IMG/VR virus record: IMGVR_UViG_3300015164_000001
Location: 1-56,246 of that record
Length of the DNA: 56,246 nt
Strand: one strand, 5' to 3'
Source of the DNA: a virus
Shown here in pieces: positions 11,073-39,496 of the stretch. The notes beneath the pieces are model-generated. The model did no database searches and was not told the origin of the DNA. It saw only the letters and a program-made list of their open reading frames with translations. Both the position numbers and the translations under genes were made by a program. How positions within the stretch are numbered: the first letter of the stretch is position 1; each line of letters begins with the position of its first letter.

Positions 11073-11744
11073 ATGCAAGTCGACTGCCCGGTATCCATCC
11101 AAGCGTGCCGACTGCGCGTGGCACGCCTCGATCCGACCACTCGCGCGCCCGTGTCGGGCGCGACCTCGGGCTACGTCACCAACGCGTTCACCGAGGTCCG
11201 GTTCGCGCCCGAGCTGGAGACCGGCACGGTCATCGAGGTCAAGTCGGGCTGCGGCGACCTGCACAACCCCTACCGCGATCCCGACACCATCAAGCGCCTG
11301 GCGATCACAGTCATCCTCGAAGCGCCCGACCCCGAACTGCACGAGTTGTTCACCGGCTCGGGCCTGGTCACGGCGACGGGTAATACCATCGGCATGACGG
11401 GCCAGCGATTCGGCTCCCAACCCAACCACGTCTCCCTCGAAGTGTGGTCCAAGGCTGTCGTCAACGGGACGCAGGACTCGACCCTCATCGGCCTCACGCC
11501 ACTGCCGTGGCTGCACTGGGCCTTCACCGATGTGCAGTTGCAGATGGGGGAGAAGCTGCTCGACAACGGCCAGGTCCTCAACTCCTTCACGGGGTTCGGC
11601 GTCGAGAACCCTGCATGGGACGACGGGCCCTTCGGCGACTGGCCCGCGAGTGCATCTCCGCTGCTCGCATCGTGGGGCGTGTTCCGCGATGCGAACATCC
11701 CGGCGAGTGCATGTGGGTACCAAAACGTGCCTGTGTTCGTTTAG
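11073..11744 (+). CDS. virion protein, paralogue 1 of tandem pair
   Basis: 223 residues, preceded by GAGGGAG. It is clearly related to the next gene over its whole length: DCPVSIQAC, TNAFTEVRF, GCGDLH, DPELHEL, IGMTGQRFG, PNHVSLEVWSKAVV, PWLHWAF, GEKLLDNGQ, SACGY. All-beta sequence, typical of tail tube or head decoration proteins. A tube, fibre-base or decoration role is equally possible. Confidence 0.65.
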   Translation: MQVDCPVSIQACRLRVARLDPTTRAPVSGATSGYVTNAFTEVRFAPELETGTVIEVKSGCGDLHNPYRDPDTIKRLAITVILEAPDPELHELFTGSGLVTATGNTIGMTGQRFGSQPNHVSLEVWSKAVVNGTQDSTLIGLTPLPWLHWAFTDVQLQMGEKLLDNGQVLNSFTGFGVENPAWDDGPFGDWPASASPLLASWGVFRDANIPASACGYQNVPVFV

Positions 11745-11756
11745 CCGCGGCCATCA

Positions 11757-12509
11757 ATGCAGACCGACTGCCCGGTGTCGATCCAGGCGTGCGCGCTGCG
11801 CGTCACGCGGCTTGATCCGATCACCCGGCGCCCGGTCGACGGCAGCGACGCGGCCTACATCACCAACGCGTTCACGGAGTTCCGCTTCAGCCCCGAGACC
11901 GACCCCGGAACGCTGATCGAGACGCGGACCTCCTGCGGCGACCTCCGGCGCTACCGCGATCCGGAGACGGTGAAGGGATTATCGGTAGCGCTCATCACCG
12001 AAGGCCCCGACCCCGAATTGCACGAGCTGCTGGTGGGCGCATCACTCATCGCGTCGGCCGGCGCGACCATCGGCATGAACGGCCAGCGCTTCGGTGCGGT
12101 GCCCAATCACGTCTCACTCGAAGTGTGGTCCAAGGCGGTCGTTGGGGGACGGCAGGCGAGCGTTCTGCCATGGCTCCATTGGGCGTTCCCTGACGTGGTG
12201 GTCCAGATCGGTGAGCGTCTCTTGGACAACGGGCAAGCATTACAGCCCTTCACCGGCTTCGCCATCGAGAATCCCCTCTGGGGCCAGGGTGCCTTCAACG
12301 ACTGGCCGCCAGGAGGGACGCCGCTGCTCTCGGCGTGGGGCGTCACGCGGTCGGCCACGCTACCCACGAGCACCTGCGGCTACGTCAGCGTGACGAACGC
12401 CTCGGGCCTCGACGGCGGCGTGGTGCCCGCGGCCTACATCCGCACCGTTGACGCCGGCGCGCCGACCACGACCACATTTGCTACGAAGTACGACGGAGGT
12501 TCGCCATGA
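11757..12509 (+). CDS. virion protein, paralogue 2 of tandem pair
   Basis: 250 residues, paralogue of the preceding protein with an extra C-terminal stretch of about 30 residues (GGVVPAAYIRTVDAGAP). The core motifs match position for position, so the pair arose by tandem duplication. No ribosome site is obvious before ATG 11757, so it is probably coupled to the upstream gene. The extension may let it contact the tail-spike protein encoded next. Confidence 0.65.
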   Translation: MQTDCPVSIQACALRVTRLDPITRRPVDGSDAAYITNAFTEFRFSPETDPGTLIETRTSCGDLRRYRDPETVKGLSVALITEGPDPELHELLVGASLIASAGATIGMNGQRFGAVPNHVSLEVWSKAVVGGRQASVLPWLHWAFPDVVVQIGERLLDNGQALQPFTGFAIENPLWGQGAFNDWPPGGTPLLSAWGVTRSATLPTSTCGYVSVTNASGLDGGVVPAAYIRTVDAGAPTTTTFATKYDGGSP

Positions 12510-29141: not shown

Positions 29142-29452
29142 CCGACAGTCACGCTGGCGCGATTCCGCACGAGTTCCATGACGCCTTCTGTTGGCTGCAG
29201 AACGAGGCATTCTGCGCGTGTGACCGCGCCCGTGGTCACTTCGGGCCGCACTCGTGGGAACTGCCCGTGGACACGCAGGTGTGGGTCAAGCGCGAGCTTT
29301 ACGAGGCTGTGTGGCAGGCGTGGGAACTGGCACGCGACGGGCTGACAATCATTGCCCAAGAGGGATCAGCCCTCGCTCGGCAGGAGCGACAACTGGCGGG
29401 CGTCATCCTCAGATCAGCCGGTTTGGCGATCCCTGAACGGCGGCCGTCTTGA
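29138..29452 (+). CDS. hypothetical protein
   Basis: 104 residues. CWLQNEAFCACDRARGHFG has two Cys and His that might bind metal. The rest is helical (LYEAVWQAWELARDGL, a heptad-like stretch). The stop overlaps the next TTG start. No family recognised. Confidence 0.6.
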   Translation: MTDSHAGAIPHEFHDAFCWLQNEAFCACDRARGHFGPHSWELPVDTQVWVKRELYEAVWQAWELARDGLTIIAQEGSALARQERQLAGVILRSAGLAIPERRPS

Positions 29453-30042
29453 CGCTGTTCGACGAGCCCGAACTGCCCCCTCACCTGAGAGCCGGGGATG
29501 GGCCGGACCCGGAGGCCGAGGCCGTCATCTCCGCTCTGGCGCGGGTATTCGGGCGCCAGCCGTGGCGGATCGGAGGCGAGCGCGAGGCGGAATGGTGCGC
29601 CAACCGCTGGGCCGCGGCCAAGGCGACGATCGACGCCATCGACGCCCATGCCGACGAGTACGCGCAGCGCATCGAGGAATGGCGCAAGGCCCGCACCGCC
29701 GAGGCCGAGCGGACGGTCGCGTGGGCCTCGGCGCATCTCACGCGGTGGCTGGAGCGCGAGCACGAGGCCGACCCAAAAGTCCTGTCCCGCAAGCTGCCAT
29801 CGGCCACCGTCGCCTCCAAAGCCGGCGGGGAGCGATGGGAGATACACCCCGACCTGTTCATCCCTTGGGCTCTAGTGAACGGCCGGACCGATCTGCTCAA
29901 GATCACGCCCGCACTCAACGAAGCGAAGAAGGCGCTGGAGCGCAAGGACGACCAGGCCATCGACCCGGACACGTCCGAGCTGATTCCTGGCGTGATCGTG
30001 GAGGATTCGCCTCGCTCCTTCCGCGTGGACCCGGCCCGATGA
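29449..30042 (+). CDS. Gam-like host-nuclease inhibitor (putative)
   Basis: 197 residues. A long helical hairpin at about 40-110 (AAAKATIDAIDAHADEYA, TVAWASAHLTRWLEREHEA) leads to SRKLPSATVASKAGGERWEI and IPWALVNGRTDLLKITPALN. This arrangement matches Mu Gam-like proteins that coat linear DNA ends against RecBCD/AddAB. Starts with TTG overlapping the previous TGA. It would protect replicating or injected DNA. Confidence 0.6.
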   Translation: MTLFDEPELPPHLRAGDGPDPEAEAVISALARVFGRQPWRIGGEREAEWCANRWAAAKATIDAIDAHADEYAQRIEEWRKARTAEAERTVAWASAHLTRWLEREHEADPKVLSRKLPSATVASKAGGERWEIHPDLFIPWALVNGRTDLLKITPALNEAKKALERKDDQAIDPDTSELIPGVIVEDSPRSFRVDPAR

Positions 30043-30049
30043 GCGATCT

Positions 30050-30241
30050 ATGGTCCATCAACTGATCGAGCACAAGGGACTCGGCTCTAACGGTGGCGCG
30101 CCCTACCTGCTGTCGGCACGGTGCGGTCAAACGGAGCGCCGAGTTTCTCTGAACGTGCCGTTCCCCGAGTCCTTCACTGGCTGGAGCAGTCGAGTCACCT
30201 GCGATGCCTGCCGCAGACGCGACGTAGCCCTCGCTTCCTGA
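30050..30241 (+). CDS. Cys-containing small protein, copy 1 of module
   Basis: 63 residues, 44 of 62 aligned residues identical to the protein at 38417. Shared VHQLIEHKG, APY.LSARCG, FPESFTGW and SRVTC..C. The CxxC plus an upstream Cys could bind zinc. Its stop is followed by a 6-bp hairpin (TCCTGA/TCAGGA), a TACGCT element and the duplicated RNA. Gene and RNA were copied together, so the protein may bind or serve the RNA (inference). Confidence 0.7.
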   Translation: MVHQLIEHKGLGSNGGAPYLLSARCGQTERRVSLNVPFPESFTGWSSRVTCDACRRRDVALAS

Positions 30242-30257
30242 GTGTCAGGAGGAGGGC

Positions 30258-30263
30258 TACGCT
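30258..30263 (+). promoter_or_regulatory. class B -10 (TACGCT) of RNA copy 1
   Basis: AGGGCTACGCT is conserved in both module copies. A start 7 nt later (30271) fits the leaderless spacing used elsewhere. Confidence 0.5.
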
Positions 30264-30270
30264 GTCTCGC

Positions 30271-30603
30271 AGTGCGACGAGAAACCCACCGTATCAACGA
30301 ACGCTGACTGACCGGGCAGTGCCCGACGACATCAGCCCGATCCACTGCTGAGTGGGTGGGATCACCCGTTATCGAACCTGTGGTCTGCTGAACGGAGACA
30401 CCGCTATTCCCGGCCGAGAACGCTGGCAAGGAGCGAAGTCCGTCGGCCCGGTGTGAACCGGCAGGCGCGTTTCTGACACGAAAGTCAGGGAGGGTGGCGG
30501 TCGCTAATCCATAACGCTGCCGTTGGTTGCAGGCTTCGGGACCTTTCATTGCTGACTACGGCTTCGGCTTTGCCATTCGCTTCCCTGATCACAGGCGAAT
30601 GGG
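30271..30603 (+). ncRNA. candidate novel structured RNA, copy 1
   Basis: About 335 nt without a credible protein gene. Helices: CGGGC-AGT-GCCCG near its 5' part; GGGTG/CACCC around GGAT; CCGGC/GCTGG (30410-30426); CCGGT-GTGA-ACCGG (30448-30461); CTGAC/GTCAG; AACG/CGTT; and CCATTCGC/GCGAATGG (30573-30602) at the 3' end. Compared with copy 2, paired bases change together (G-C to A-U, U-A to C-G, C-G to U-A) while the tetraloop stays GNRA. It is not recognisable as tmRNA, RNase P, 6S or a self-splicing intron. Confidence 0.75.
30272..30307 (+). CDS. 11-codon leader-like ORF at RNA 5' end, copy 1
   Basis: GTG CGA CGA GAA ... TGA encodes MRRETHRINER, starting one base after the predicted transcript start. 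Copy 2 has an 11-codon ORF of the same length at the same place (MGREAHDTSGD). The shared R-E-x-H is weak evidence; it may be chance. Confidence 0.2.
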   Translation: MRRETHRINER

Positions 30604-30642
30604 GGATGAGACGCGGGGTGGGGGAACTGGTCCCGATAGTCC

Positions 30643-30672
30643 TTGCGTCGCTCTAGTCCAGCGCGCTAGAGT
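30643..30672 (+). promoter_or_regulatory. class A promoter box 4 with -35
   Basis: TTGCGT (30643-30648), 18-bp spacer with AGTCCAGCGCGC, TAGAGT (30667-30672), 6 nt to ATG 30679. Confidence 0.75.
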
Positions 30673-30678
30673 GATCGC

Positions 30679-30900
30679 ATGACAATGACCCGCAGAGAAG
30701 AGCCCACGCAACAGCCCGAGCGCGCCATCGTCGGGCACTGCCCCGAGTGCGCGCGGGTGGTCATCCTGTGCAACAACCACGAGTCATGGCCCCTCGTCGT
30801 CTGCCATTGCGGATGGGAGGGCGGGACCGATGGCATCGTGAACCGCGTCCGGGTCGAGAACGGCGGCCGCATCGTCGACCAGCAGCACTCCGACTTCTGA
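30679..30900 (+). CDS. zinc-ribbon protein
   Basis: 73 residues beginning MTMTRREE. CPEC (about 22-25) and CHCG (about 43-46) frame VVILCNNHESWPLVV, a compact zinc ribbon. Leaderless class A start. First gene of the operon reaching WhiB. Confidence 0.7.
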   Translation: MTMTRREEPTQQPERAIVGHCPECARVVILCNNHESWPLVVCHCGWEGGTDGIVNRVRVENGGRIVDQQHSDF

Positions 30901-31076
30901 TGAGTGTCGCCCCGACTTTCCACGACGCCGCCAAGCGCTCCGTCGTCACCCTGCCCGACCATCGCACCGCGCGCCTCGTGTTCGTGGCTCGCAAGGGGAA
31001 CACGGCGCGCGTGCAACTGGAGAGCGGCGCCTTCCTCAGCGTCAAGGCCGACTCTCTCAAGGTGGAGGAATCGTGA
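30900..31076 (+). CDS. hypothetical SH3-like small protein
   Basis: 58 residues, mostly beta (RTARLVFVARKGNTARVQLE), with an alternation typical of small barrels. ATG overlaps the previous TGA. Function unknown. Confidence 0.6.
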   Translation: MSVAPTFHDAAKRSVVTLPDHRTARLVFVARKGNTARVQLESGAFLSVKADSLKVEES

Positions 31077-31288
31077 CGACCTATGTGCTGGTCGAAGTCG
31101 GATGCATCGAGTGCGGGGATGACACGCTCGTCCGTGCGCTGACCGACGAGCTGCCCGCCGATGCGCTTGTCGTCCATCCCGGTGACAGCGTGGAACTGAC
31201 CTACCACGCCTCGCTGATCGCGATCCCCGTCACACCCGAGGCGCAAAATCCGAGCATGGCCCCTTCCCCGAAAGAGAGCACCCAATGA
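31073..31288 (+). CDS. hypothetical protein
   Basis: 71 residues, GTG start overlapping the previous stop. Beta-rich N-terminus with a single CIEC pair (VGCIECGDD), then an acidic, Pro-rich tail. No family recognised. Confidence 0.6.
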   Translation: MTTYVLVEVGCIECGDDTLVRALTDELPADALVVHPGDSVELTYHASLIAIPVTPEAQNPSMAPSPKESTQ

Positions 31289-32193
31289 CCGCCACCGAGA
31301 TCGCCACCATGGATGGGGCACCGCTGCCCGTCACCCGTTCCACGATGCCCGTCCGCCAGTCGCCCGCCGCCCTGGCCGAGCAGGCCCAGGAGATCCGCGA
31401 GGTCATGCGCGCCGTGCTCGTGGAGAACACCGACTACGGCGTGATCCCCGGGACCAACAAGCCATCGCTCTACAAGAGCGGGGCGGAATGGCTGCTCAAG
31501 TGGGGCGGCTTCGGGCATCGTCTCGAGCCGGTCGAGGTCGAGCGCGACGCCGACGGGCGCAAGTACGGCGTGACCTATCGCTGCACCGTGACCCTGCTGT
31601 CGGATCCGAGCGCCATCGTCTCAACTTGCGACGGATACGCAGGGATGGACGAAGATCGGTTCTGCCAGTCCGTCGAGGAACTCATGGCGAAGGAGAAGGC
31701 CAACGCCACGAAGTACAAGCGCGCGGCGGCCGAGTGGAAGTGGGCCGCGCCCTACCGAGCGCCGTGGAACTCCGTGCTCAAGATGGCGGAGAAGCGCGCT
31801 CTGGTGGGAGCCACGTTGCAGGCCTGCGCCGCCTCCGGGCTCTTCACGCAGGACATGGAGGATCATGCGCCGGCCGGCGTCCGTGAGCCAACCGAGCCTA
31901 CGGACTGGTTCGTCGCCAACGGGTGGGACGATGGAGACGCCGAGGAGGACGCCCACCACCGGGCCCTGATGGCCCGCCACAAGGCCCTGAGTGAGACGCC
32001 TCGGGCCGACTTCGATGGATGGGCCGCGGCCAACGGCATCGACCTGAAGAAGGCCCTCAAGCGCGAGCAGTGGGAGCAGGCGACGACCTACATTGACGCT
32101 CTCGCCGGCCAAGCCGTGGAGGACGCCACCGGCGACGAGACCACAGTCGAGAGCGGCAACGGGAGAGGGGAAGAGCCCGAACCCCGCCCTTGA
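31285..32193 (+). CDS. conserved phage protein of the VIPGT/KPSL family
   Basis: 302 residues. NTDYGVIPGTNKPSLYKSGA and EWLLKWGGF form a block seen in many phage and plasmid proteins encoded near recombination genes. YRCTVTLLSDPS and WNSVLKMAEKRALVGATLQA follow, the latter like the C-terminal helix of single-strand annealing and ssDNA-binding proteins. The last 110 residues are acidic. A role in DNA recombination is likely but unproven. Confidence 0.6.
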   Translation: MTATEIATMDGAPLPVTRSTMPVRQSPAALAEQAQEIREVMRAVLVENTDYGVIPGTNKPSLYKSGAEWLLKWGGFGHRLEPVEVERDADGRKYGVTYRCTVTLLSDPSAIVSTCDGYAGMDEDRFCQSVEELMAKEKANATKYKRAAAEWKWAAPYRAPWNSVLKMAEKRALVGATLQACAASGLFTQDMEDHAPAGVREPTEPTDWFVANGWDDGDAEEDAHHRALMARHKALSETPRADFDGWAAANGIDLKKALKREQWEQATTYIDALAGQAVEDATGDETTVESGNGRGEEPEPRP

Positions 32194-32819
32194 TCGGGGC
32201 CAGTGAGGCGGATCCGCCGCCGCCTCCTGGCCCCGAACCCCCGAAGGTCGAGCAGCTCGTCGAGAACCTCGAAACCGCCGCCGCCGCGGCCAAGGAAGCC
32301 CGCGAGGCTCAGATTCGCCCTGAGACGCCCCAGGAGCCGAGCGCGCCAACCACCGCGCCCGAGGCCCCCGAGAGCCACAGCGGCGAAATCCCGGCCCGAT
32401 CCGAGGCGAATCGCTGCGCCTGCGGTGACACTGGTTCGATCAAGGGCGAGCGATGCCCGTTCTGTGAGATGCCCCCTTGTCGCTTCTGCGGCTCCGTCGA
32501 CGAGCCGCGGGCATGGTGCGGATCCGAGCTCGGCATGGCCGACGACATCGCCGACCCCCGCGCCGAGTGCGTCGACGAGAAGGCGTGCGCGGTGCGGGAT
32601 GCCATCGCCTCCGCCCCCGACGGCGAGTACACGCCGGCACCGAGCGATGACCCGACATCGGCACCCGAGGCCTGCCCGCTCTGCCATAGCTCACGCGCCA
32701 CGCTGGTGTTCGTCCCGCCGACCCACCTCGAGGATTCCGGCCAGTGGCGTTGCCAGAACGGGTCCGCCTGTAAAAGCCGCCAACAGTTGGCCCAGGCGCG
32801 GGAATCATTGGGCGAATGA
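32190..32819 (+). CDS. multi-zinc-finger protein with Pro-rich arm
   Basis: 209 residues. TTG start overlaps the previous TGA. N-terminal 80 residues are Pro/Ala/Glu-rich and probably disordered. CACGD, CPFCEMPPCRFCG, CGSE, CPLCHSS and CQNGSAC then supply three or more likely zinc sites. Could bind nucleic acid; no family recognised. Confidence 0.6.
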   Translation: MIGASEADPPPPPGPEPPKVEQLVENLETAAAAAKEAREAQIRPETPQEPSAPTTAPEAPESHSGEIPARSEANRCACGDTGSIKGERCPFCEMPPCRFCGSVDEPRAWCGSELGMADDIADPRAECVDEKACAVRDAIASAPDGEYTPAPSDDPTSAPEACPLCHSSRATLVFVPPTHLEDSGQWRCQNGSACKSRQQLAQARESLGE

Positions 32820-33064
32820 GAGAGCGGCCCACCTGGATGATCTATGGAAACTGCGTGGGTCTCGCCCCGGCCACGTTCTACCCATCGCCGCACGACCTGA
32901 CCGGCGAACTCATGGCGAAGGCGATCTGCGCCGAGTGCCCGGTTCTGTCTCCGTGCCGAACGTACGCCCTAGACAACGACGAATCGGGCGTTTGGGGGAT
33001 GACGAGCGAGGCGGAGCGGCGCGCGATGACGAAGCGGACTAAGAAGCTCCTGCGGGCACAGTGA
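32816..33064 (+). CDS. whiB: WhiB-family transcriptional regulator
   Basis: 82 residues. Four Cys at 13, 38, 41 and 47 (CAECPVLSPC) hold the [4Fe-4S] cluster of the family, and ESGVWGM is the conserved G(V/I)WGG turn. A basic C-terminus (RRAMTKRTKKLLRAQ) binds DNA. WhiB proteins are actinobacterial and act with sigma-A region 4; phage versions reprogramme host or phage promoters. It is a candidate activator or repressor of the class A promoters (inference). Confidence 0.88.
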   Translation: MRERPTWMIYGNCVGLAPATFYPSPHDLTGELMAKAICAECPVLSPCRTYALDNDESGVWGMTSEAERRAMTKRTKKLLRAQ

Positions 33065-33231
33065 GCGCCGAGCCCGTCTCGAAGTTCGCTCTGATGAACC
33101 AGGGCTGGCCGATGCCGGCGCAGCACGGCACCCGTTCGCGGTATCGCAAGGGCTGCAAGTGCGACTGGTGCCGCGAGGCCGAGGCGACCTACCGGGCCCG
33201 CTATCGCGAGCGGCTGGCCCGCTCGAAGTAA
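33061..33231 (+). CDS. small zinc-knuckle protein
   Basis: 56 residues. HGTRSRYRKGCKCDWCREAE, then a basic helix (YRARYRERLARSK), is a pattern common in actinophage small proteins. GTG overlaps the whiB stop. Probably nucleic-acid binding. Confidence 0.65.
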   Translation: MSAEPVSKFALMNQGWPMPAQHGTRSRYRKGCKCDWCREAEATYRARYRERLARSK

Positions 33232-33277
33232 TCCCACAGGCTGAGCCACCCGTCCGCGCACTAGTCGCGGTAGCGTG

Positions 33278-33302
33278 CTCGCGTACACCTTCGGGACGCG
33301 AG
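33278..33302 (+). promoter_or_regulatory. leader hairpin with TAGCGT upstream
   Basis: CTCGCGT (33278-33284) pairs with ACGCGAG (33296-33302). A TANNNT element (TAGCGT, 33271) precedes it. With the terminator hairpin immediately after, this may be an attenuator ahead of the replication genes. Confidence 0.35.
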
Positions 33303-33303
33303 A

Positions 33304-33331
33304 CACGCCAGCCGCTCGACTGGCTGGCGTG
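33304..33331 (+). terminator. 10-bp terminator hairpin
   Basis: CACGCCAGCC and GGCTGGCGTG, an 8-nt loop and GCTCT after it. Ends the WhiB operon or attenuates the next. The remaining bases to 33404 hold no gene. Confidence 0.7.
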
Positions 33332-33404
33332 CTCTAGATCGGTCCCGGCTCAGGAGGGGATCTCAGATCATGGTCAGGAATGTAGCAAAGGCCAGTGACA
33401 AGCC

Positions 33405-34157
33405 GTGAGCGCGGAAGCGACTGGATGGGTCTACCGCCATTCGCCATTCAGGGGAGCCGTGTTCGCGGTTCACCACGCCATCGCCGATTCAGTGAACGAC
33501 CAGCACGACAACGAGTTCTGGATGGCCGTTGGTCGCCTGGCTGAGAAGTGTCGGTTGACCCGGCGCACGGCAGGTCTGGCTATGGCGACTCTGGTTGCAG
33601 AGGGGTACGTAGATATCACGGACGGTGATCCTGTAAATGCCGCGCGACCAGTCCGGTATCGCTTCCTATTCCCCGAGTCGCCAGTGGTGTTCGAGGGAAG
33701 GCGGGTGCGTGATCCACGCAACCTGGTGCGCAGCAATCACGCACCAGGTGCGCAATCCACGACACCGGAGGTGCGAACTGACAACGCACCCATAGAACCC
33801 AATAGAGAACCCAAGCTAAAAACCCAAGCAGAGAATGGTCAGTTCGATGCCTTCTGGATGGCCTATCCGCGCAAGGTCGCGAAAGGCGATGCGCGAAAGG
33901 CGTACGCCAAAGCCATCCAAACCGCCGACCCCGAGATAATCACTCTCGGTGCTCATCGCTTGGCGAACGATCCGAACCGCGTGGACAAGTTCACACCGCA
34001 TCCGGCGACGTGGCTGAACGGCGAACGATGGAATGACCCGCCGTTGCCGTCGACGCTGAGCCCCGTCCGCTCGGGGCCTTCACAGAACGGCATCACTGGA
34101 GCGGGCCCACGCACGATCACCGTCACGCGCCCAGCGAAACGAGATCCCCGTGGATGA
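33405..34157 (+). CDS. replication initiator-like helix-turn-helix protein
   Basis: 250 residues. The N-terminal 110 residues form a winged-helix (FWMAVGRLAEKCRLTRRTAG, ATLVAEGYVDIT), as in DnaD/initiator proteins. A polar linker leads to FDAFWMAYPRKVAKGDARKA and TPHPATWLNGERWND, the C-terminal helicase-loading motif of phage initiators. The next gene encodes the matching ATPase. It probably opens the phage origin, which may lie in this gene or its leader. Confidence 0.75.
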   Translation: MSAEATGWVYRHSPFRGAVFAVHHAIADSVNDQHDNEFWMAVGRLAEKCRLTRRTAGLAMATLVAEGYVDITDGDPVNAARPVRYRFLFPESPVVFEGRRVRDPRNLVRSNHAPGAQSTTPEVRTDNAPIEPNREPKLKTQAENGQFDAFWMAYPRKVAKGDARKAYAKAIQTADPEIITLGAHRLANDPNRVDKFTPHPATWLNGERWNDPPLPSTLSPVRSGPSQNGITGAGPRTITVTRPAKRDPRG

Positions 34158-34803
34158 TGAACCCCGCAAGGTCGACGCCGGCCCGCTCACCGCCCGATTG
34201 GAAGCGGTGCAAGCCAAGGCCCGCGAACGGGGGTACGCCGAGCCCGAGCCGGTGAGGATGTACCAGCCCACACCGGAGGATCAGGAGCGGACGCGCTGGC
34301 AACGATGGGCGCCGCAGAAGTTCCACGCGGCGGAGTTGGGCACGCTCGATCCGGACGGGCGCGCCATCGCCGATGACTGGCTGGCCGATCCGACCGTGAA
34401 CCTGATCCTCTCCGGCCCCGTGGGAGTGGGAAAGACCCATCTGGCCTTCGCCATCTGTCGCAAGCTGCTCACCGTCGTAGGGCGGGTGTCGTGGTGGCCG
34501 ACGGTGGAGTTGCTCGATGCTCTCCGACCAAGCGATGACGGCGCGGTCGACATGCGTGGCCTAGTCGAAGAACGGGTGCTGATGCTCGACGACCTCGGCG
34601 GGGAACGGGCGAGCGACTGGACGCGCGAGCGGCTCTACTCGCTCATCAATCGTCGCTGGATGGAGGAACGCCCACTCATCGTCACCGTCAACACCGACAC
34701 GGCCGGCTTGGTGGAGGCGATCGGCGAACGGTCCGTAGACCGGCTGCTCGACGGCGCGGTATCAGTCAGGCTCGCAGGCGCAAGTCGAAGGGAGCGGGCA
34801 TGA
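34150..34803 (+). CDS. DnaC-like helicase loader ATPase
   Basis: 217 residues of the AAA+ DnaC/IstB type. Walker A GPVGVGKT, Walker B LMLDDLGGE, sensor TVNTDTAG and the arginine-finger region SVDRLLDGAVSVRL. GTG 34150 overlaps the initiator gene. It loads the host or phage helicase at the origin. Confidence 0.85.
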   Translation: MDDEPRKVDAGPLTARLEAVQAKARERGYAEPEPVRMYQPTPEDQERTRWQRWAPQKFHAAELGTLDPDGRAIADDWLADPTVNLILSGPVGVGKTHLAFAICRKLLTVVGRVSWWPTVELLDALRPSDDGAVDMRGLVEERVLMLDDLGGERASDWTRERLYSLINRRWMEERPLIVTVNTDTAGLVEAIGERSVDRLLDGAVSVRLAGASRRERA

Positions 34804-35063
34804 GCGGGAAAGACGCCGCGGTAGAGGCCCTGGTGGAATCGGCCGCGATCGCGTCGGCGGACTGTGCAGATTGGCAAGGCACGCCGTCGATCCTGCTTGC
34901 CAAGGCTCTGGTCCTTGCTACTCGCCAGAACTTGGAACGGGCCGCCATGCCAGACATGGACCCGGAGGACCAGTTGTGGGCTCTGGCACAACTTGAGGAC
35001 GTACCGAAGGCGGCGGCTGGGATGGTGGTGAATCTCCATCGTCCGTCGCCAGAACCGCGCTAG
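34800..35063 (+). CDS. hypothetical protein
   Basis: 87 residues, helical and acidic (VEALVESAAIASADCADW, EDQLWALAQLEDVPK). ATG overlaps the helicase-loader stop; its TAG lies inside the class A box of the next gene. Could be an accessory of replication. Confidence 0.6.
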   Translation: MSGKDAAVEALVESAAIASADCADWQGTPSILLAKALVLATRQNLERAAMPDMDPEDQLWALAQLEDVPKAAAGMVVNLHRPSPEPR

Positions 35064-35079
35064 TCCAATGCGCTAGAGT
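35063..35079 (+). promoter_or_regulatory. class A promoter box 5
   Basis: GTCCAATGCGCTAGAGT, one mismatch, 7 nt to ATG 35087; the spacer overlaps the stop of the previous gene. Confidence 0.7.
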
Positions 35080-35086
35080 GCCCGCA

Positions 35087-35620
35087 ATGACCGCGACCAT
35101 CGTCGGACTGGACCTCAGCCTCACGGGCACGGGTATCGCCACCGAGGACGGCGAACAACTCGCCGCATTCCCGAAGCTGCGGGGTCTGGAGCGCATCGTC
35201 TCCATCCGTGACGCCGTGCTCAAGGAGACGAGTAACGCCGACCTCGTGGTCATCGAGGACTACGCCTTCTCGCGCGCCGCCAGCCATGCTCACGAGCTGG
35301 GCGAGCTAGGTGGCGTGGTCAAGGTGGCGCTGCGCGAGGAAGGCATAGCCGTGGTGCTCGTCGGCCCGAGCGCCCTCAAGAAGTGGGCGACTGGCAAGGG
35401 AAACGCGACGAAGCCCGACATGCGCATGGCGCGGCTCAAGCGCACCGGCGTCGACGAGCGCGACGACAACAAGAACGATGCGTGGTGGCTCCGCCAGCTC
35501 GCGCTCTACGCGTACGGCGACGAGTCACTCCACCTGCCCGCATTGCAAGCCGCGGTGGCCGGCGCGCTGACGTGGCCGCAACTGCGCCCGCTCGACGATC
35601 CACCCGCCCGAACCGACTGA
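35087..35620 (+). CDS. RuvC-like Holliday-junction resolvase
   Basis: 177 residues, RNase H fold. Acidic residues: D9 (VGLDLSLTGTG), E57 (VVIEDYAF) and the C-terminal D126/D131 (DDNKNDAWWL). ATG 35087 follows the class A -10 by 7 nt. It resolves branched DNA before packaging. Confidence 0.8.
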   Translation: MTATIVGLDLSLTGTGIATEDGEQLAAFPKLRGLERIVSIRDAVLKETSNADLVVIEDYAFSRAASHAHELGELGGVVKVALREEGIAVVLVGPSALKKWATGKGNATKPDMRMARLKRTGVDERDDNKNDAWWLRQLALYAYGDESLHLPALQAAVAGALTWPQLRPLDDPPARTD

Positions 35621-35634
35621 GAGAGAGAACCCCA

Positions 35635-35967
35635 ATGGCTGACAAGCTCACACGCTTCGAAGGACAACCCGTGAAGGCCGCGCGCCTGAAGGTGAATGGG
35701 CTCTCGTCCTCGATCGACGAAGCACTCCACGTCGGCGACATCGGCTATGCCGTCATCGAGTACGAGCTCGGCGAAGTGGGCCATGTCAACGACGACAAGA
35801 TCGGGCTCATCCGCGTGCACAAGGCGAACCTCATCCGCCACGCCTCGATGGAAGGCCCGGACGCCCGCTTCATCCTCGACGCCGCGGACGAAGCCCAGCG
35901 GCTGGCCGAGGAAGCGGCGAGCGGCATCTCCCGGTTGCCCCTAGAACCGGACGCGGCGGCTCAATGA
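35635..35967 (+). CDS. hypothetical protein
   Basis: 110 residues. Beta-rich N-terminal half (DIGYAVIEYELGEVGHVN), helical acidic C-terminal half. GAGAGAGA precedes the ATG. No family recognised; it follows the resolvase in one operon. Confidence 0.65.
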   Translation: MADKLTRFEGQPVKAARLKVNGLSSSIDEALHVGDIGYAVIEYELGEVGHVNDDKIGLIRVHKANLIRHASMEGPDARFILDAADEAQRLAEEAASGISRLPLEPDAAAQ

Positions 35968-36233
35968 CCCCGCGGCGCTATCGCAAGAAGCCAGTTGTCA
36001 TTGAGGCCATCCAGTTCGACGGCAATTTCGATGAGGTCGAAGCATTCGTTGGCGGCGACGCAGAGTTTCGTGACGGCCAGCTTGTGATCGCCACGCTGGA
36101 AGGAGCGATGCGGGCTGATCCGCACGACTGGATCATCCGCGGCGTCAAAGGCGAGTTCTACCCGTGCAAGCCCGACATCTTCGCCGCTACCTACGAAGCG
36201 GTCAACGCTCTCGGAGCGGTGGTGGAATCGTGA
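35964..36233 (+). CDS. PGDYG-family protein
   Basis: 89 residues. YRKKPVVIEAIQFDG at the start and DWIIRGVKGEFYPCKPDIF match the PGDYG family found in many phages. Biochemical role unknown. ATG overlaps the previous stop. Confidence 0.8.
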   Translation: MTPRRYRKKPVVIEAIQFDGNFDEVEAFVGGDAEFRDGQLVIATLEGAMRADPHDWIIRGVKGEFYPCKPDIFAATYEAVNALGAVVES

Positions 36234-36457
36234 CCCCCAAGCAGGCCGAACGCGCCCTGGTGGCCATCGGCAAGCGCCTCCAGGCCAACAAGGACGACGA
36301 AGCGCGGCTCTTGACCGAGGTCGAGGACACGGTGTACGAGGCCCGAGCGGCCGGCGTGGAGTGGGCCGCGATCCCCGGCCTGTTGGGCAAGTCGCGCTCG
36401 GGGTGCCTGGCCTACTACGCGCGGGCCAAGGCGCGGCGGGAAGCGGCTACGGCGTGA
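36230..36457 (+). CDS. hypothetical HTH-like protein
   Basis: 75 residues. The C-terminal half, VEWAAIPGLLGKSRSGCLAY, resembles a helix-turn-helix. GTG overlaps the PGDYG stop. Possibly DNA-binding. Confidence 0.55.
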   Translation: MTPKQAERALVAIGKRLQANKDDEARLLTEVEDTVYEARAAGVEWAAIPGLLGKSRSGCLAYYARAKARREAATA

Positions 36458-37729
36458 AGCTGACTGAAGGGTCGCTCTGTACGGGATACAACGGCCTGGG
36501 TCTCGCGGTGGAGTCGGTGCTCGGGACCGAGCTCGCGTGGTATTCCGAGCTCGATCCGCACGCGTGCAAAGTGCTCAAGACGCATTACCCCGACGTGGCG
36601 AACCTCGGCGACCTGACCGCGCTCGACTGGGAAGGCGTGCCGCGAGTGGACGTGATCACCGCTGGCTATCCGTGCCAGCCGTTTCAGCCACGCCGGCCAG
36701 CGCAAAGGAACCGACGATGAGCGCCACCTCTGGCCCCACATCGCCGTCGCCTTGGGGGTACTTCGACCCTCGCTTGTCGTGCTCGAAAATGTCGCTGGAC
36801 ATCTTTCCCTCGGATTCGATGTCGTCCTCTCCGACCTTGCCGCCTTGGGGTATGTGGGACGGTACGGCGTTGTACGCGCTTCCGATGTCGGCGCGTGCCA
36901 TCAGCGCGCCCGACTCTTCGTTGTTGCCAAGTCCAACGACCAGCGATGCGAAGGGGCCATCTCCGAACCACGGCGGGACGACCGCCGAAGCCATCCGCGA
37001 CCTCCTGCCGACACCATCGGCGGGGAACTTCAACGACGGGGAATCGGTGGAGTCATGGACCGAGCGCCGGGACAAGCTGGCGGCGACTCATCAGAACGGG
37101 AACGGGATGGGGACACCGCTGTCGATAGCGGTGCGGACCTTGCCGACGCCGACCGTGGGCGACGCGAAGAACGCTCGGAACTCGACCGCCACTCGCCACA
37201 GGACACCGCCGACAGGAATCCATGCGGGCGACACGCTGACGGACGCCCTGGTGCCTCTGCTGCCGACGCCACGAGCGGCCCGGGGTTCATCATCGACCGA
37301 GACGGTGAACCTGCTCCCAACTCCGAGACGGGGGGGGGACGGAGGGACTGCGGAGCACTCGGACCTGTCGGGAGTGATCAAGATGCTTCCGACCCCGATG
37401 GCGAGACTCGGGGACAACCGTGGAGCGCAGGCGAAGCGGTACAAGAACCCGGAGCGGTCGAACGATCTGGACGACGCGATCGCGTGGATTGGGGAGACTA
37501 CGGCCCCGCCATCGAGCGACACGCTGCCGTCCTCGGACGGGATGCTCCCGTTCCAACCGATGATCGTGGACGTCTTGCTCCCCGATTCGTGGAGTGGATG
37601 ATGATGCTCCCCGAGGGCTGGGTGACCGACGTGGTGACCCGCCGACCGGCTGCACTCAAATGCCTCGGCAACGGCGTGGTGCCGCTCCAGGCGGCGGCGG
37701 CGCTGCGGGAGCTACTGCTCGCTCCTTGA
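36454..37729 (+). pseudogene. C5-cytosine DNA methyltransferase with +1 frameshift at catalytic motif
   Basis: Frame 1 (GTG 36454 to TGA 36720, 88 aa) has SLCTGYNGLGLAVE (motif I), ELDPHACKVL and AGYPCQPF. At CCGTTTCAG one extra T breaks the frame. With it removed the protein continues SHAGQRKGTDDERHLWPH, LVVLENVAG (motif VI), CHQRARLFVV (motif VIII), a long hydrophilic ADA-rich insert, FVEWMMMLPEGWVTD and CLGNGVVPLQAAAAL (motif X). Both halves are well preserved. So this is a recent break, a sequencing error in TTT, or a programmed +1 shift. The second half overlaps the gene at 36717. Confidence 0.75.
36717..37601 (+). CDS. LPTP-repeat protein overlapping the methylase in another frame
   Basis: 294 residues in a third frame inside the methylase. 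ATG 36717 has AAAGGA 7 nt upstream and overlaps the stop of the methylase N-terminal part (ATGA). It reads coherently: SPWGYFDPRLSCSKMSLDIF, PTLPPWGMWDGTALYALPMS, then five units of LL/ML/TLP(S/T)P followed by Asp/Gly-rich text. This family is known beside phage C5 methylases; function unknown. The LPTPT units correspond to ADAD units in the methylase frame, so the DNA seems to code twice. Confidence 0.6.
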   Translation: MSATSGPTSPSPWGYFDPRLSCSKMSLDIFPSDSMSSSPTLPPWGMWDGTALYALPMSARAISAPDSSLLPSPTTSDAKGPSPNHGGTTAEAIRDLLPTPSAGNFNDGESVESWTERRDKLAATHQNGNGMGTPLSIAVRTLPTPTVGDAKNARNSTATRHRTPPTGIHAGDTLTDALVPLLPTPRAARGSSSTETVNLLPTPRRGGDGGTAEHSDLSGVIKMLPTPMARLGDNRGAQAKRYKNPERSNDLDDAIAWIGETTAPPSSDTLPSSDGMLPFQPMIVDVLLPDSWSG

Positions 37730-37755
37730 CCGCCGTCAGTCCAACGCGCTAGAGT
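37726..37755 (+). promoter_or_regulatory. class A promoter box 6 with -35
   Basis: TTGACC (37726-37731, overlapping the methylase stop), 18-bp spacer ending GTCCAACGCGC, TAGAGT, 7 nt to ATG 37763. Confidence 0.8.
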
Positions 37756-37762
37756 TGCCAGC

Positions 37763-38038
37763 ATGACAACGACCCAAGCGCCTGACACCTTCCGCGACGT
37801 GATCAAGGCCACCGACCGTGGCGGCTATCTAGTTCGGAGCGCCTCCCGTCGGCTGCTCTGGTGGATGGTGTCCACCGAGGACGGCAAGGCCACCTGCGGC
37901 TGCGAGTTCGGCCAGACCATCACCGCCGTGTCGCAGAGAGCCTGTCGCCATCAGCGTCGCGTGCTGGCCTTCGTCAACGACGAGAACGCCCGCATGGCTC
38001 GCCCCGTCATGGCCCCGAACTACGCGGCCTTCGAGTGA
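37763..38038 (+). CDS. SWIM-type zinc-finger protein
   Basis: 91 residues starting MTTTQ. ATCGCEFGQ and RACRHQRRVLAF give the CxC...CxH pattern of SWIM fingers, which bind DNA or proteins. Leaderless class A start. Confidence 0.7.
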   Translation: MTTTQAPDTFRDVIKATDRGGYLVRSASRRLLWWMVSTEDGKATCGCEFGQTITAVSQRACRHQRRVLAFVNDENARMARPVMAPNYAAFE

Positions 38039-38403
38039 AGATCAGCCTCACCCGCCGCGCCGCCGCGCCGTTGACCTTCGAGGGGGAGCTGCTCGCCGAA
38101 GTGTCGAGCGACGATGGCGCGAAGGACCGCTTCACCGTCGTCGCCATCTTCCGCCGCACCGATGAGACCGAGGGATGGGTGCTTCACACGCGCGGCGTCT
38201 CGCGCCTGAGCGACGAGTTGGAACTGTCCGATGCCGTGACCTGCGTGCTCGCCGAGGACGTGGTGCGCGCCCTGATGAAGTCGGACTCCTCGAGCGGGAC
38301 GAGGCGGTACTACATGACGGAACTCGGATTGGAACTGCTGGCCGAAGCGGCCGAGGTCGACGAGCGGCTCGCGGTGCTGGCCGAGGTCGAGGACCTGGTG
38401 TGA
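38035..38403 (+). CDS. hypothetical protein
   Basis: 122 residues. N-terminal beta half (FEGELLAEVSSDD, FTVVAIFRRTDETEGW), C-terminal acidic coiled coil (LLAEAAEVDERLAVLAEVE). GTG overlaps the previous stop. No family recognised. Confidence 0.6.
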   Translation: MKISLTRRAAAPLTFEGELLAEVSSDDGAKDRFTVVAIFRRTDETEGWVLHTRGVSRLSDELELSDAVTCVLAEDVVRALMKSDSSSGTRRYYMTELGLELLAEAAEVDERLAVLAEVEDLV

Positions 38404-38416
38404 TGTGGCATCCGTT

Positions 38417-38605
38417 GTGCACCAACTGATCGAGCACAAGGGCGAAGGGGCGAACGGCAACGCGCCATACCGACTGTCGGCGCGCTGCGGTCATAGCGAG
38501 CAACGCCGGACGCTCGCTGAGTCGTTCCCCGAGTCCTTCACCGGGTGGGCATCGCGAGTGACCTGCGAAACCTGTCTCAAGCGCGACGTAGCCCCCGCAT
38601 CCTGA
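38417..38605 (+). CDS. Cys-containing small protein, copy 2 of module
   Basis: 62 residues from GTG 38417 (in-frame GTG 38405 is an alternative). Paralogue of the protein at 30050 with the same RCG and CxxC. It has one more His (RCGH) that would complete a zinc site; copy 1 has Gln there. The RNA follows as in copy 1. Confidence 0.7.
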   Translation: MHQLIEHKGEGANGNAPYRLSARCGHSEQRRTLAESFPESFTGWASRVTCETCLKRDVAPAS

Positions 38606-38622
38606 TCGGCAGGAAGGAGGGC

Positions 38623-38628
38623 TACGCT
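38623..38628 (+). promoter_or_regulatory. class B -10 (TACGCT) of RNA copy 2
   Basis: GGCTACGCTGGCTCGC then A at 38636 after 7 nt, as in copy 1. Confidence 0.5.
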
Positions 38629-38635
38629 GGCTCGC

Positions 38636-38671
38636 ATGGGACGAGAGGCTCACGATACATCGGGCGACTGA
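38636..38671 (+). CDS. 11-codon leader-like ORF at RNA 5' end, copy 2
   Basis: ATG exactly 7 nt after TACGCT encodes MGREAHDTSGD. Same length and place as in copy 1; significance uncertain. Confidence 0.2.
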   Translation: MGREAHDTSGD

Positions 38672-38971
38672 CGCGCCGGGCAGTGCCCGATGACATCAGC
38701 CCAACTCACCGCGTAGAGGGTGGGATCACCTGATATCGAAACCTGTGGTCTGCTGCGATTCGGGACACCGCTATTCCTGGCCGTGAACGCCAGCAAGGAG
38801 CGAAGCCGAGCCAGCCCAGCGCAAGCTGGCGGGCGCGTACCTGACACGAAAGTCAGGGAGGGTGGCGGTCGCTAATCCATAACGCGGCCGTTGGTTGCAG
38901 GCTTCGGGACCTTTCATTGCTGACTACGGCTTCGGCTTTGCCATTCGCTTCCCTGATCACAGGCGAATGGG
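38636..38971 (+). ncRNA. candidate novel structured RNA, copy 2
   Basis: About 335 nt without a protein gene. Helices correspond to copy 1: CTGGC/GCCAG (38777-38793) and CCAGC-GCAA-GCTGG (38816-38829) carry paired substitutions relative to copy 1. CCTGAC/GTCAGG and the 3' CCATTCGC/GCGAATGG stem (38941-38970) are kept. The variable loops are in helices, the constant bases in the 3' half, as expected of a folded RNA. Confidence 0.75.
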
Positions 38972-39004
38972 GCAAGGGCGCGGGCGTTGTGTAAGGCTCG
39001 CGGG

Positions 39005-39496
39005 ATGGCCTCGAAGTGGGTGGCCGCGCTGGTGCTCGTTTCGCTGGGGATGGCGGGATGCGGCAGGACCCACGGCGCGCGCCCGGACACGATCTGGACC
39101 CGCTCAGTCCCGCCGCCCGCCGCGGTCAACGACTACGACCAGCGAGGATTCGACCTAGAACTCGCTCTCCGCTCGCTGGCGGCCCGCGACGCCCTGATAC
39201 CGCGCTCGGGCCATCCGAACGCACCACGGGCAACCAGGGGCACTCCACGGAGCCGAATCGGTGGGGATGTGCTGAGTCGCATCGCCCAATGCGAGAGCCA
39301 CGGCAATCCGACGGACGTGAACCGCACGAGCGGCGCCGGTGGGATTTATCAGTACTTGCCGTCGACGTGGAACAACTACGCGGGCTTCGCCCGAGCGCAG
39401 GACGCCCCGCCCGAAGTACAGGAGGCACGGGCCCGCGCCGACCTCGCCCGCATCGGGACGCGCCCATGGGCCTCGTCGCGGCATTGTTGGGGCTAG
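39005..39496 (+). CDS. lipoprotein with transglycosylase/Rpf-like domain
   Basis: 163 residues. Signal peptide with lipobox-like GMAGC at about 16-20. The C-terminal 75 residues, VLSRIAQCESHGNPTDVNRT, GAGGIYQYLPSTWNNYAG and QEARARADLARIG, match resuscitation-promoting-factor/lytic-transglycosylase domains; E in CES is the likely catalytic acid. It could remodel peptidoglycan during lysis or DNA entry. It is unusual for a phage to encode it as a free lipoprotein away from the lysis genes. ATG 39005 follows TAAGGCT by about 9 nt. Confidence 0.75.
   Translation: MASKWVAALVLVSLGMAGCGRTHGARPDTIWTRSVPPPAAVNDYDQRGFDLELALRSLAARDALIPRSGHPNAPRATRGTPRSRIGGDVLSRIAQCESHGNPTDVNRTSGAGGIYQYLPSTWNNYAGFARAQDAPPEVQEARARADLARIGTRPWASSRHCWG

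Follow-up and report, generated by a model that had tools for sequence, protein, structure and literature searches.

A duplicated cassette with a small Cys protein gene and a candidate structured 3'-UTR RNA in the genome of a putative actinophage

HEARO, the omega RNA of IscB, is encoded beside its protein partner. To our knowledge, no function has been assigned to GOLLD or ROOL, nor has a protein partner been identified for ROOL. Both are large, structured noncoding RNAs encoded by phages, with many helices and of unknown function (PMC12286853), and the bacterial OLE RNA, which is also structured, has six or more proteins as binding partners (PMC12286853). Symmetric kissing loops have been reported for OLE and GOLLD (PMC12286853). 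In addition, HK022 has two similar put RNAs, which are located downstream of PL and PR (PMC9378689).

The locus reported here belongs to the 56,246-base virus record IMGVR_UViG_3300015164_000001 (IMG/VR), which was analyzed over its whole length and is referred to below as the window. It probably encodes a structured RNA that belongs to none of the Rfam families and is linked to the gene of a small protein, and this RNA may constitute a new RNA family.

Genomic context and organization of the cassettes

In phage records, the nearest match to the terminase of the virus was the one of Streptomyces phage mu1/6 (46% identity), the matches of the portal were almost all to actinophages (23-28% identity), and a WhiB-family regulator is encoded by the phage at 32816-33064 (Pfam, E=2.9e-16). 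Therefore, according to these predicted proteins, the host is very probably an actinobacterium. The comparisons of terminase and portal with phage records did not reveal any close cultured relative. The window also contains tandem duplicated genes (11073-11744 and 11757-12509) with a DNA identity of about 72-77%, and a motif of 22-26 nt, ACACCGAGGCGCAGCCATGAGC, which occurs at least five times between 41609 and 42888, at the starts of successive genes, and resembles start-associated sequences of mycobacteriophages. The noncoding stretch 33233-33400 has strong inverted repeats, ACGCCAGCCGCTCGACTGGCTGGCGT and CGCGTACACCTTCGGGACGCG, which are possibly a terminator or another small RNA.

The two cassettes, located at approximately 30024-30604 and 38388-38972, each consist of the small gene and about 365 nt of noncoding DNA and form direct repeats, 8.4 kb apart, with homology over about 580 bp. 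A preliminary description of this DNA had placed two copies of a gene and RNA module here, and the alignment of copy 2 with copy 1 (blastn, E=1e-112) bore this out. According to the alignment of 30030-30700 with 38385-39040 and a repeat search, the homology starts about 26 nt 5' of the small gene and stops 2 nt past the terminal hairpin (30604 and 38972, respectively), with none clear further on. No third copy was present in the window.

The surroundings of the cassettes are not the same. Directly upstream of cassette 1 there is a Gam-like gene (29449-30042; Mu Gam-like, Pfam E=1.3e-07), for the product of which tblastn did not reveal any relative among the phages of the collection, and cassette 2 is preceded by two small ORFs. 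Downstream, RNA copy 1 is followed by an ORF of 73 aa (30679-30900) without Pfam match, and RNA copy 2 by a protein with a transglycosylase (Rpf-like) domain and a lipoprotein-like N terminus (38987-39496), for which tblastn against the phage collection gave no relative. DnaC-like and RuvC-like genes are located between the two cassettes.

A promoter-like motif of 17 bp, GTCYARCGCGCTAGAGT, was found on the + strand at 30656-30672, 52 nt past RNA copy 1. It is one of eight copies in the window, where 0.22 would be expected by chance, and all of them are on the + strand, with starts at 2959, 4158, 28004, 30656, 35063, 37739, 39506, and 49225. In the cases read, the motif lies a few bases 5' of an ATG. 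It resembles a phage promoter in which TAGAGT would be the −10 element and from which nearly leaderless transcripts would start.

The small Cys protein gene of copy 1 (30050-30241, + strand) encodes 63 aa and that of copy 2 (38405-38605, + strand) 66 aa when read from the GTG at 38405, although an alternative GTG start at 38417 fits copy 1 better. The proteins share 44 of 62 aligned residues, the same figure as given in the preliminary description, and C-G, C-x2-C, an N-terminal H and FPESFTGW are invariant between them. The coding part showed 51 base differences in 186 (27%), distributed as 10, 13, and 28 over the three codon positions, with pS 0.49, pN 0.20, and dN/dS 0.29. Given this distribution over codon positions and the low dN/dS, comparison of the copies indicates that the small gene encodes a real protein under purifying selection, and, in view of the pS, the duplication is not recent. 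No family in Pfam, PHROGs, NCBIfam or PADLOC was found for the small protein, including known RNA-binding, zinc-ribbon, and nuclease families. Its predicted structure was of low confidence (pLDDT 51.5), and the matches in PDB to designed ankyrin repeats, which covered about 20 residues, were judged spurious.

Conservation and predicted fold of the noncoding part

The noncoding part comprises 363 nt in copy 1 (30242-30604) and 367 nt in copy 2 (38606-38972), slightly more than the approximately 335 nt initially proposed, while its noncoding status was maintained. In this regard, coding of a protein in the RNA region was rejected because G+C content by codon position was flat across it and the two copies are separated by one- and two-base indels. 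The 5' two thirds (30242-30472) are about 20% different between copies, which is below the synonymous sites of the adjoining gene. At 30473 the divergence falls sharply, from about 20% to 1/132, and stays so through to the end of the homology. The resulting near-identical block of 132 nt on the + strand (30473-30604 in copy 1 and 38841-38972 in copy 2) has its only difference at 30518 (T) and 38886 (G), so that the single base difference initially seen over the last 130 nt or so was recovered, together with the far greater divergence of the coding part (27% against 1/132). As read from two sequences, which cannot separate the two causes, this identity may come either from very strong constraint or from a conversion tract. 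Template and variable repeats of a diversity-generating retroelement were rejected, since the differences are not confined to adenines.

The fold was derived with RNAalifold on the two copies and with a model limited to local helices. The candidate structured RNA extends on the + strand from the stop-codon hairpin P1 to the terminal hairpin P14 (30223-30604 in copy 1 and 38587-38972 in copy 2), and the helices of the model are P1, P2, P3 (CGGGC-AGU-GCCCG), P4, P7, a branched core formed by P8-P13, and P14. Hairpin P1 spans the stop codon of the small gene both in copy 1 (30223-30261) and in copy 2 (38587-38626) and was in both far more stable than shuffled sequences (z −5.0 and −4.3, respectively). 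In P7 (30403-30434 and 38770-38801 in the local-helix model), one pair is compensated between copies and another one changes between G-U and G-C. The branched core occupies 30435-30537 in copy 1 and 38802-38905 in copy 2, and within it the P10 hairpin is CCGGU-GUGA-ACCGG in copy 1 (30448-30461) and CCAGC-GCAA-GCUGG in copy 2 (38816-38829), all on the + strand. Its GNRA tetraloop is retained despite changes at two of the four loop bases. P14 is located at 30573-30602 and 38941-38970 (+ strand), with the palindromic sequence UGAUCA in its loop.

The local-helix model contains 88 pairs, of which three are compensated and nine have a one-sided change that creates or removes a G-U pair, with no pair broken; this last count is biased, as the same two sequences had served to select the structure. 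Two of the compensated pairs are in the P10 hairpin and one is in a second helix, CCGGC:GCUGG in copy 1 and CUGGC:GCCAG in copy 2. These are the two helices for which paired substitutions had been described, with a preserved GNRA loop in the first of them, and both exist and covary in that way. When partners were slid by one to three columns, pairing dropped to 27-46%. With the local model held fixed, about 6% of random relocations and 58 of 500 shuffles also attained three compensated pairs.

In view of this bias, a fairer test was applied, in which each substitution of copy 2 was reassigned at random to a position with the same base and the consensus was refitted every time. For the full RNA, only one of 120 such controls reached the observed consensus energy. 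For the 3' domain, the energy was reached by 19 of 400 controls and the number of compensated pairs by 3 of 400; for the 5' part, the energy was reached by 7 of 400, and there was no excess of compensated pairs. Additionally, the consensus energy was better on the + strand than on the other one, both for the whole RNA (−125.2 vs. −120.7 kcal/mol) and for the 3' domain (−83.9 vs. −71.2 kcal/mol), a strand preference that agrees with the orientation of the gene. The folding energy of the single sequences was not decisive: copy 1 was unremarkable, with z −1.4 for the whole RNA and −0.3 for the core domain, and copy 2 gave −2.8 and −3.7, respectively. The long-range pairing also differs, as each copy prefers another global fold.

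The preliminary description had taken the paired changes as an indication of selection for an RNA fold. Since the noncoding part is better conserved than synonymous sites and its helices are kept, and in agreement with the refitting test, such selection is supported by the comparison of the copies, moderately, because only two paralogous sequences are available. Conserved secondary structure with compensatory changes, the features by which structured noncoding RNAs of phages are recognized, was accordingly found to a moderate degree in these two sequences.

Searches for relatives and weighing of explanations

None of the 4227 models of Rfam matched the window at its gathering score, and ARAGORN found no tRNA or tmRNA gene in it, in line with the earlier view that the RNA belongs to no known family. 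GOLLD, ROOL, OLE, HEARO, tmRNA, RNase P, 6S, and group I and II introns did not reach their Rfam thresholds, and a permissive Rfam search of both copies gave only chance matches (E of 1 or higher). Nothing credible was obtained by blastn against phages and plasmids or by tblastn of the small protein against phages. Scans of IMG/VR with patterns of 40, 23, 19, 16, and 15 bases, with the protein and with its alignment, gave only chance matches, and the contig of one 19-base match had no further similarity. An 18-mer scan of genome contigs gave eight matches, approximately the estimated chance expectation, none of them with extended similarity and the longest being of 27 nt, in Arthrobacter. The covariance model did not give any credible match in 13 terminase-related virus records, in prophage-like regions of two genomes or in about 800 actinobacterial genomes; one match, to 90 nt of the 244-position model, was rejected as expected by chance over 396 genomes, and over these the protein alignment gave one chance-level match within a larger frame. 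It must be considered that exact-pattern scans are insensitive to divergent relatives, that several of the virus records are fragments and that close relatives of this record may have been excluded from the searches. Given this limited sensitivity, the negative result does not amount to evidence of absence, and, with no homologue found, it would be premature to speak of a new RNA class.

We favor, with a probability of about 0.6, a duplicated actinophage cassette in which the 3' UTR of the small Cys protein gene contains a compact, multi-helix RNA of about 380 nt that acts in trans. The cassette would be transcribed inside a + strand operon, the strong hairpin P1 at the stop codon would free or protect the RNA, and its 3' end would be at hairpin P14; against this reading, none of the sigma-70-like or terminator-like sites was specific to the RNA. 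It would then be a stable phage RNA whose action during infection is in trans, the conserved work being done by the 3' core P8-P14, and the adjoining small protein may bind it. Small gene and RNA are linked in both copies of this one genome, and the RNA is assigned to the upstream small gene because this gene is constant while the downstream genes differ. For the same kind of reason, the RNA is unlikely to be a riboswitch or leader of the gene that follows it, as the two copies precede unrelated genes, the 73-aa ORF and the transglycosylase-domain protein. A ribonucleoprotein of the RNA and the small Cys protein is plausible and compatible with their co-duplication. To go further, to a new class of phage ribonucleoprotein in which the 63-66 aa protein and the 3'-UTR RNA form a particle that acts in infection, is duplicated as a unit and possibly self-associates through the UGAUCA of P14, would be tentative.

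The main rival is a structured 3' UTR acting in cis, on the stability or processing of its own transcript or in antitermination or pausing similar to that of HK022 put, which we regard as rather unlikely. Each copy is part of a run of + strand genes and is situated between two occurrences of GTCYARCGCGCTAGAGT, P1 goes across the stop codon in each of them, and HK022 likewise has two similar put RNAs per genome (PMC9378689). Nevertheless, the RNA is always paired with the protein gene, no terminator-like site was found on the + strand around it, and its length of about 380 nt contrasts with the approximately 70 nt of put. Moreover, copy 1 is about 2.2 kb past the preceding GTCYARCGCGCTAGAGT and 52 nt before the next one, whereas put is near its promoter. 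A put-like antiterminator, with about 70 nt, two stems and a position near a promoter, was thus rejected by length, number of helices, and spacing of the motif.

The near-identity of the 132-bp block lends itself to two further explanations. The block could be a site for recombination, replication or packaging, the identity of which is maintained by gene conversion or by DNA-binding constraint, with helices that are incidental; the single difference in a cassette otherwise diverged by 20-27%, the direct repeats 8.4 kb apart and the Gam-like gene just upstream of the first of them, with DnaC-like and RuvC-like genes in between, would suit such a site. However, compensated and wobble-type changes with preservation of the GNRA loop occur outside the identical block, and the unit includes a constrained protein and about 580 bp of homology rather than one site, so that we consider a DNA-level element improbable. 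Less probable still is an ectopic duplication without function in its noncoding part, the 3' portion of which would have undergone gene conversion recently: the sharp step at 30473 from about 20% to 1/132, maintained to the end of the homology, fits such a tract, but 30242-30472 also diverges less than synonymous sites and retains its helices.

Comparison with described systems

A compact RNA co-duplicated with one small protein would be a tractable system, with less than 600 bp per cassette, for studying what such RNAs do, and, if its fold is confirmed, it would represent a family so far missing from Rfam, in a phage lineage without close cultured relative. Like HK022, this phage has two similar structured RNA elements in its genome, although those of HK022 are of about 70 nt with two stem-loops, are near early promoters (putR about 270 nt past the start site) and act without dedicated protein factors. 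HEARO and IscB also present an RNA next to a protein gene, which here encodes 63-66 aa without nuclease family match, and the RNA has no Rfam match. OLE is a structured RNA with protein partners, as may be the case here; however, OLE is cellular and not from a phage, there is no sequence or Rfam match to it, and nothing links the small Cys protein to its partners. The palindromic UGAUCA in the loop of P14 recalls the symmetric kissing loops of OLE and GOLLD, a likeness that is only a lead, since a palindromic hexamer is not rare in a loop of this size (chance estimated at about 14%). With GOLLD and ROOL the candidate shares its nature of structured noncoding RNA with many helices encoded by a phage, and it differs from them in its length (about 380 nt, compared with 659 nt for ROOL env-120 and more than 800 nt for many GOLLD members), in having neither a match in Rfam nor a tRNA in the window, and in being accompanied by a co-duplicated protein gene.
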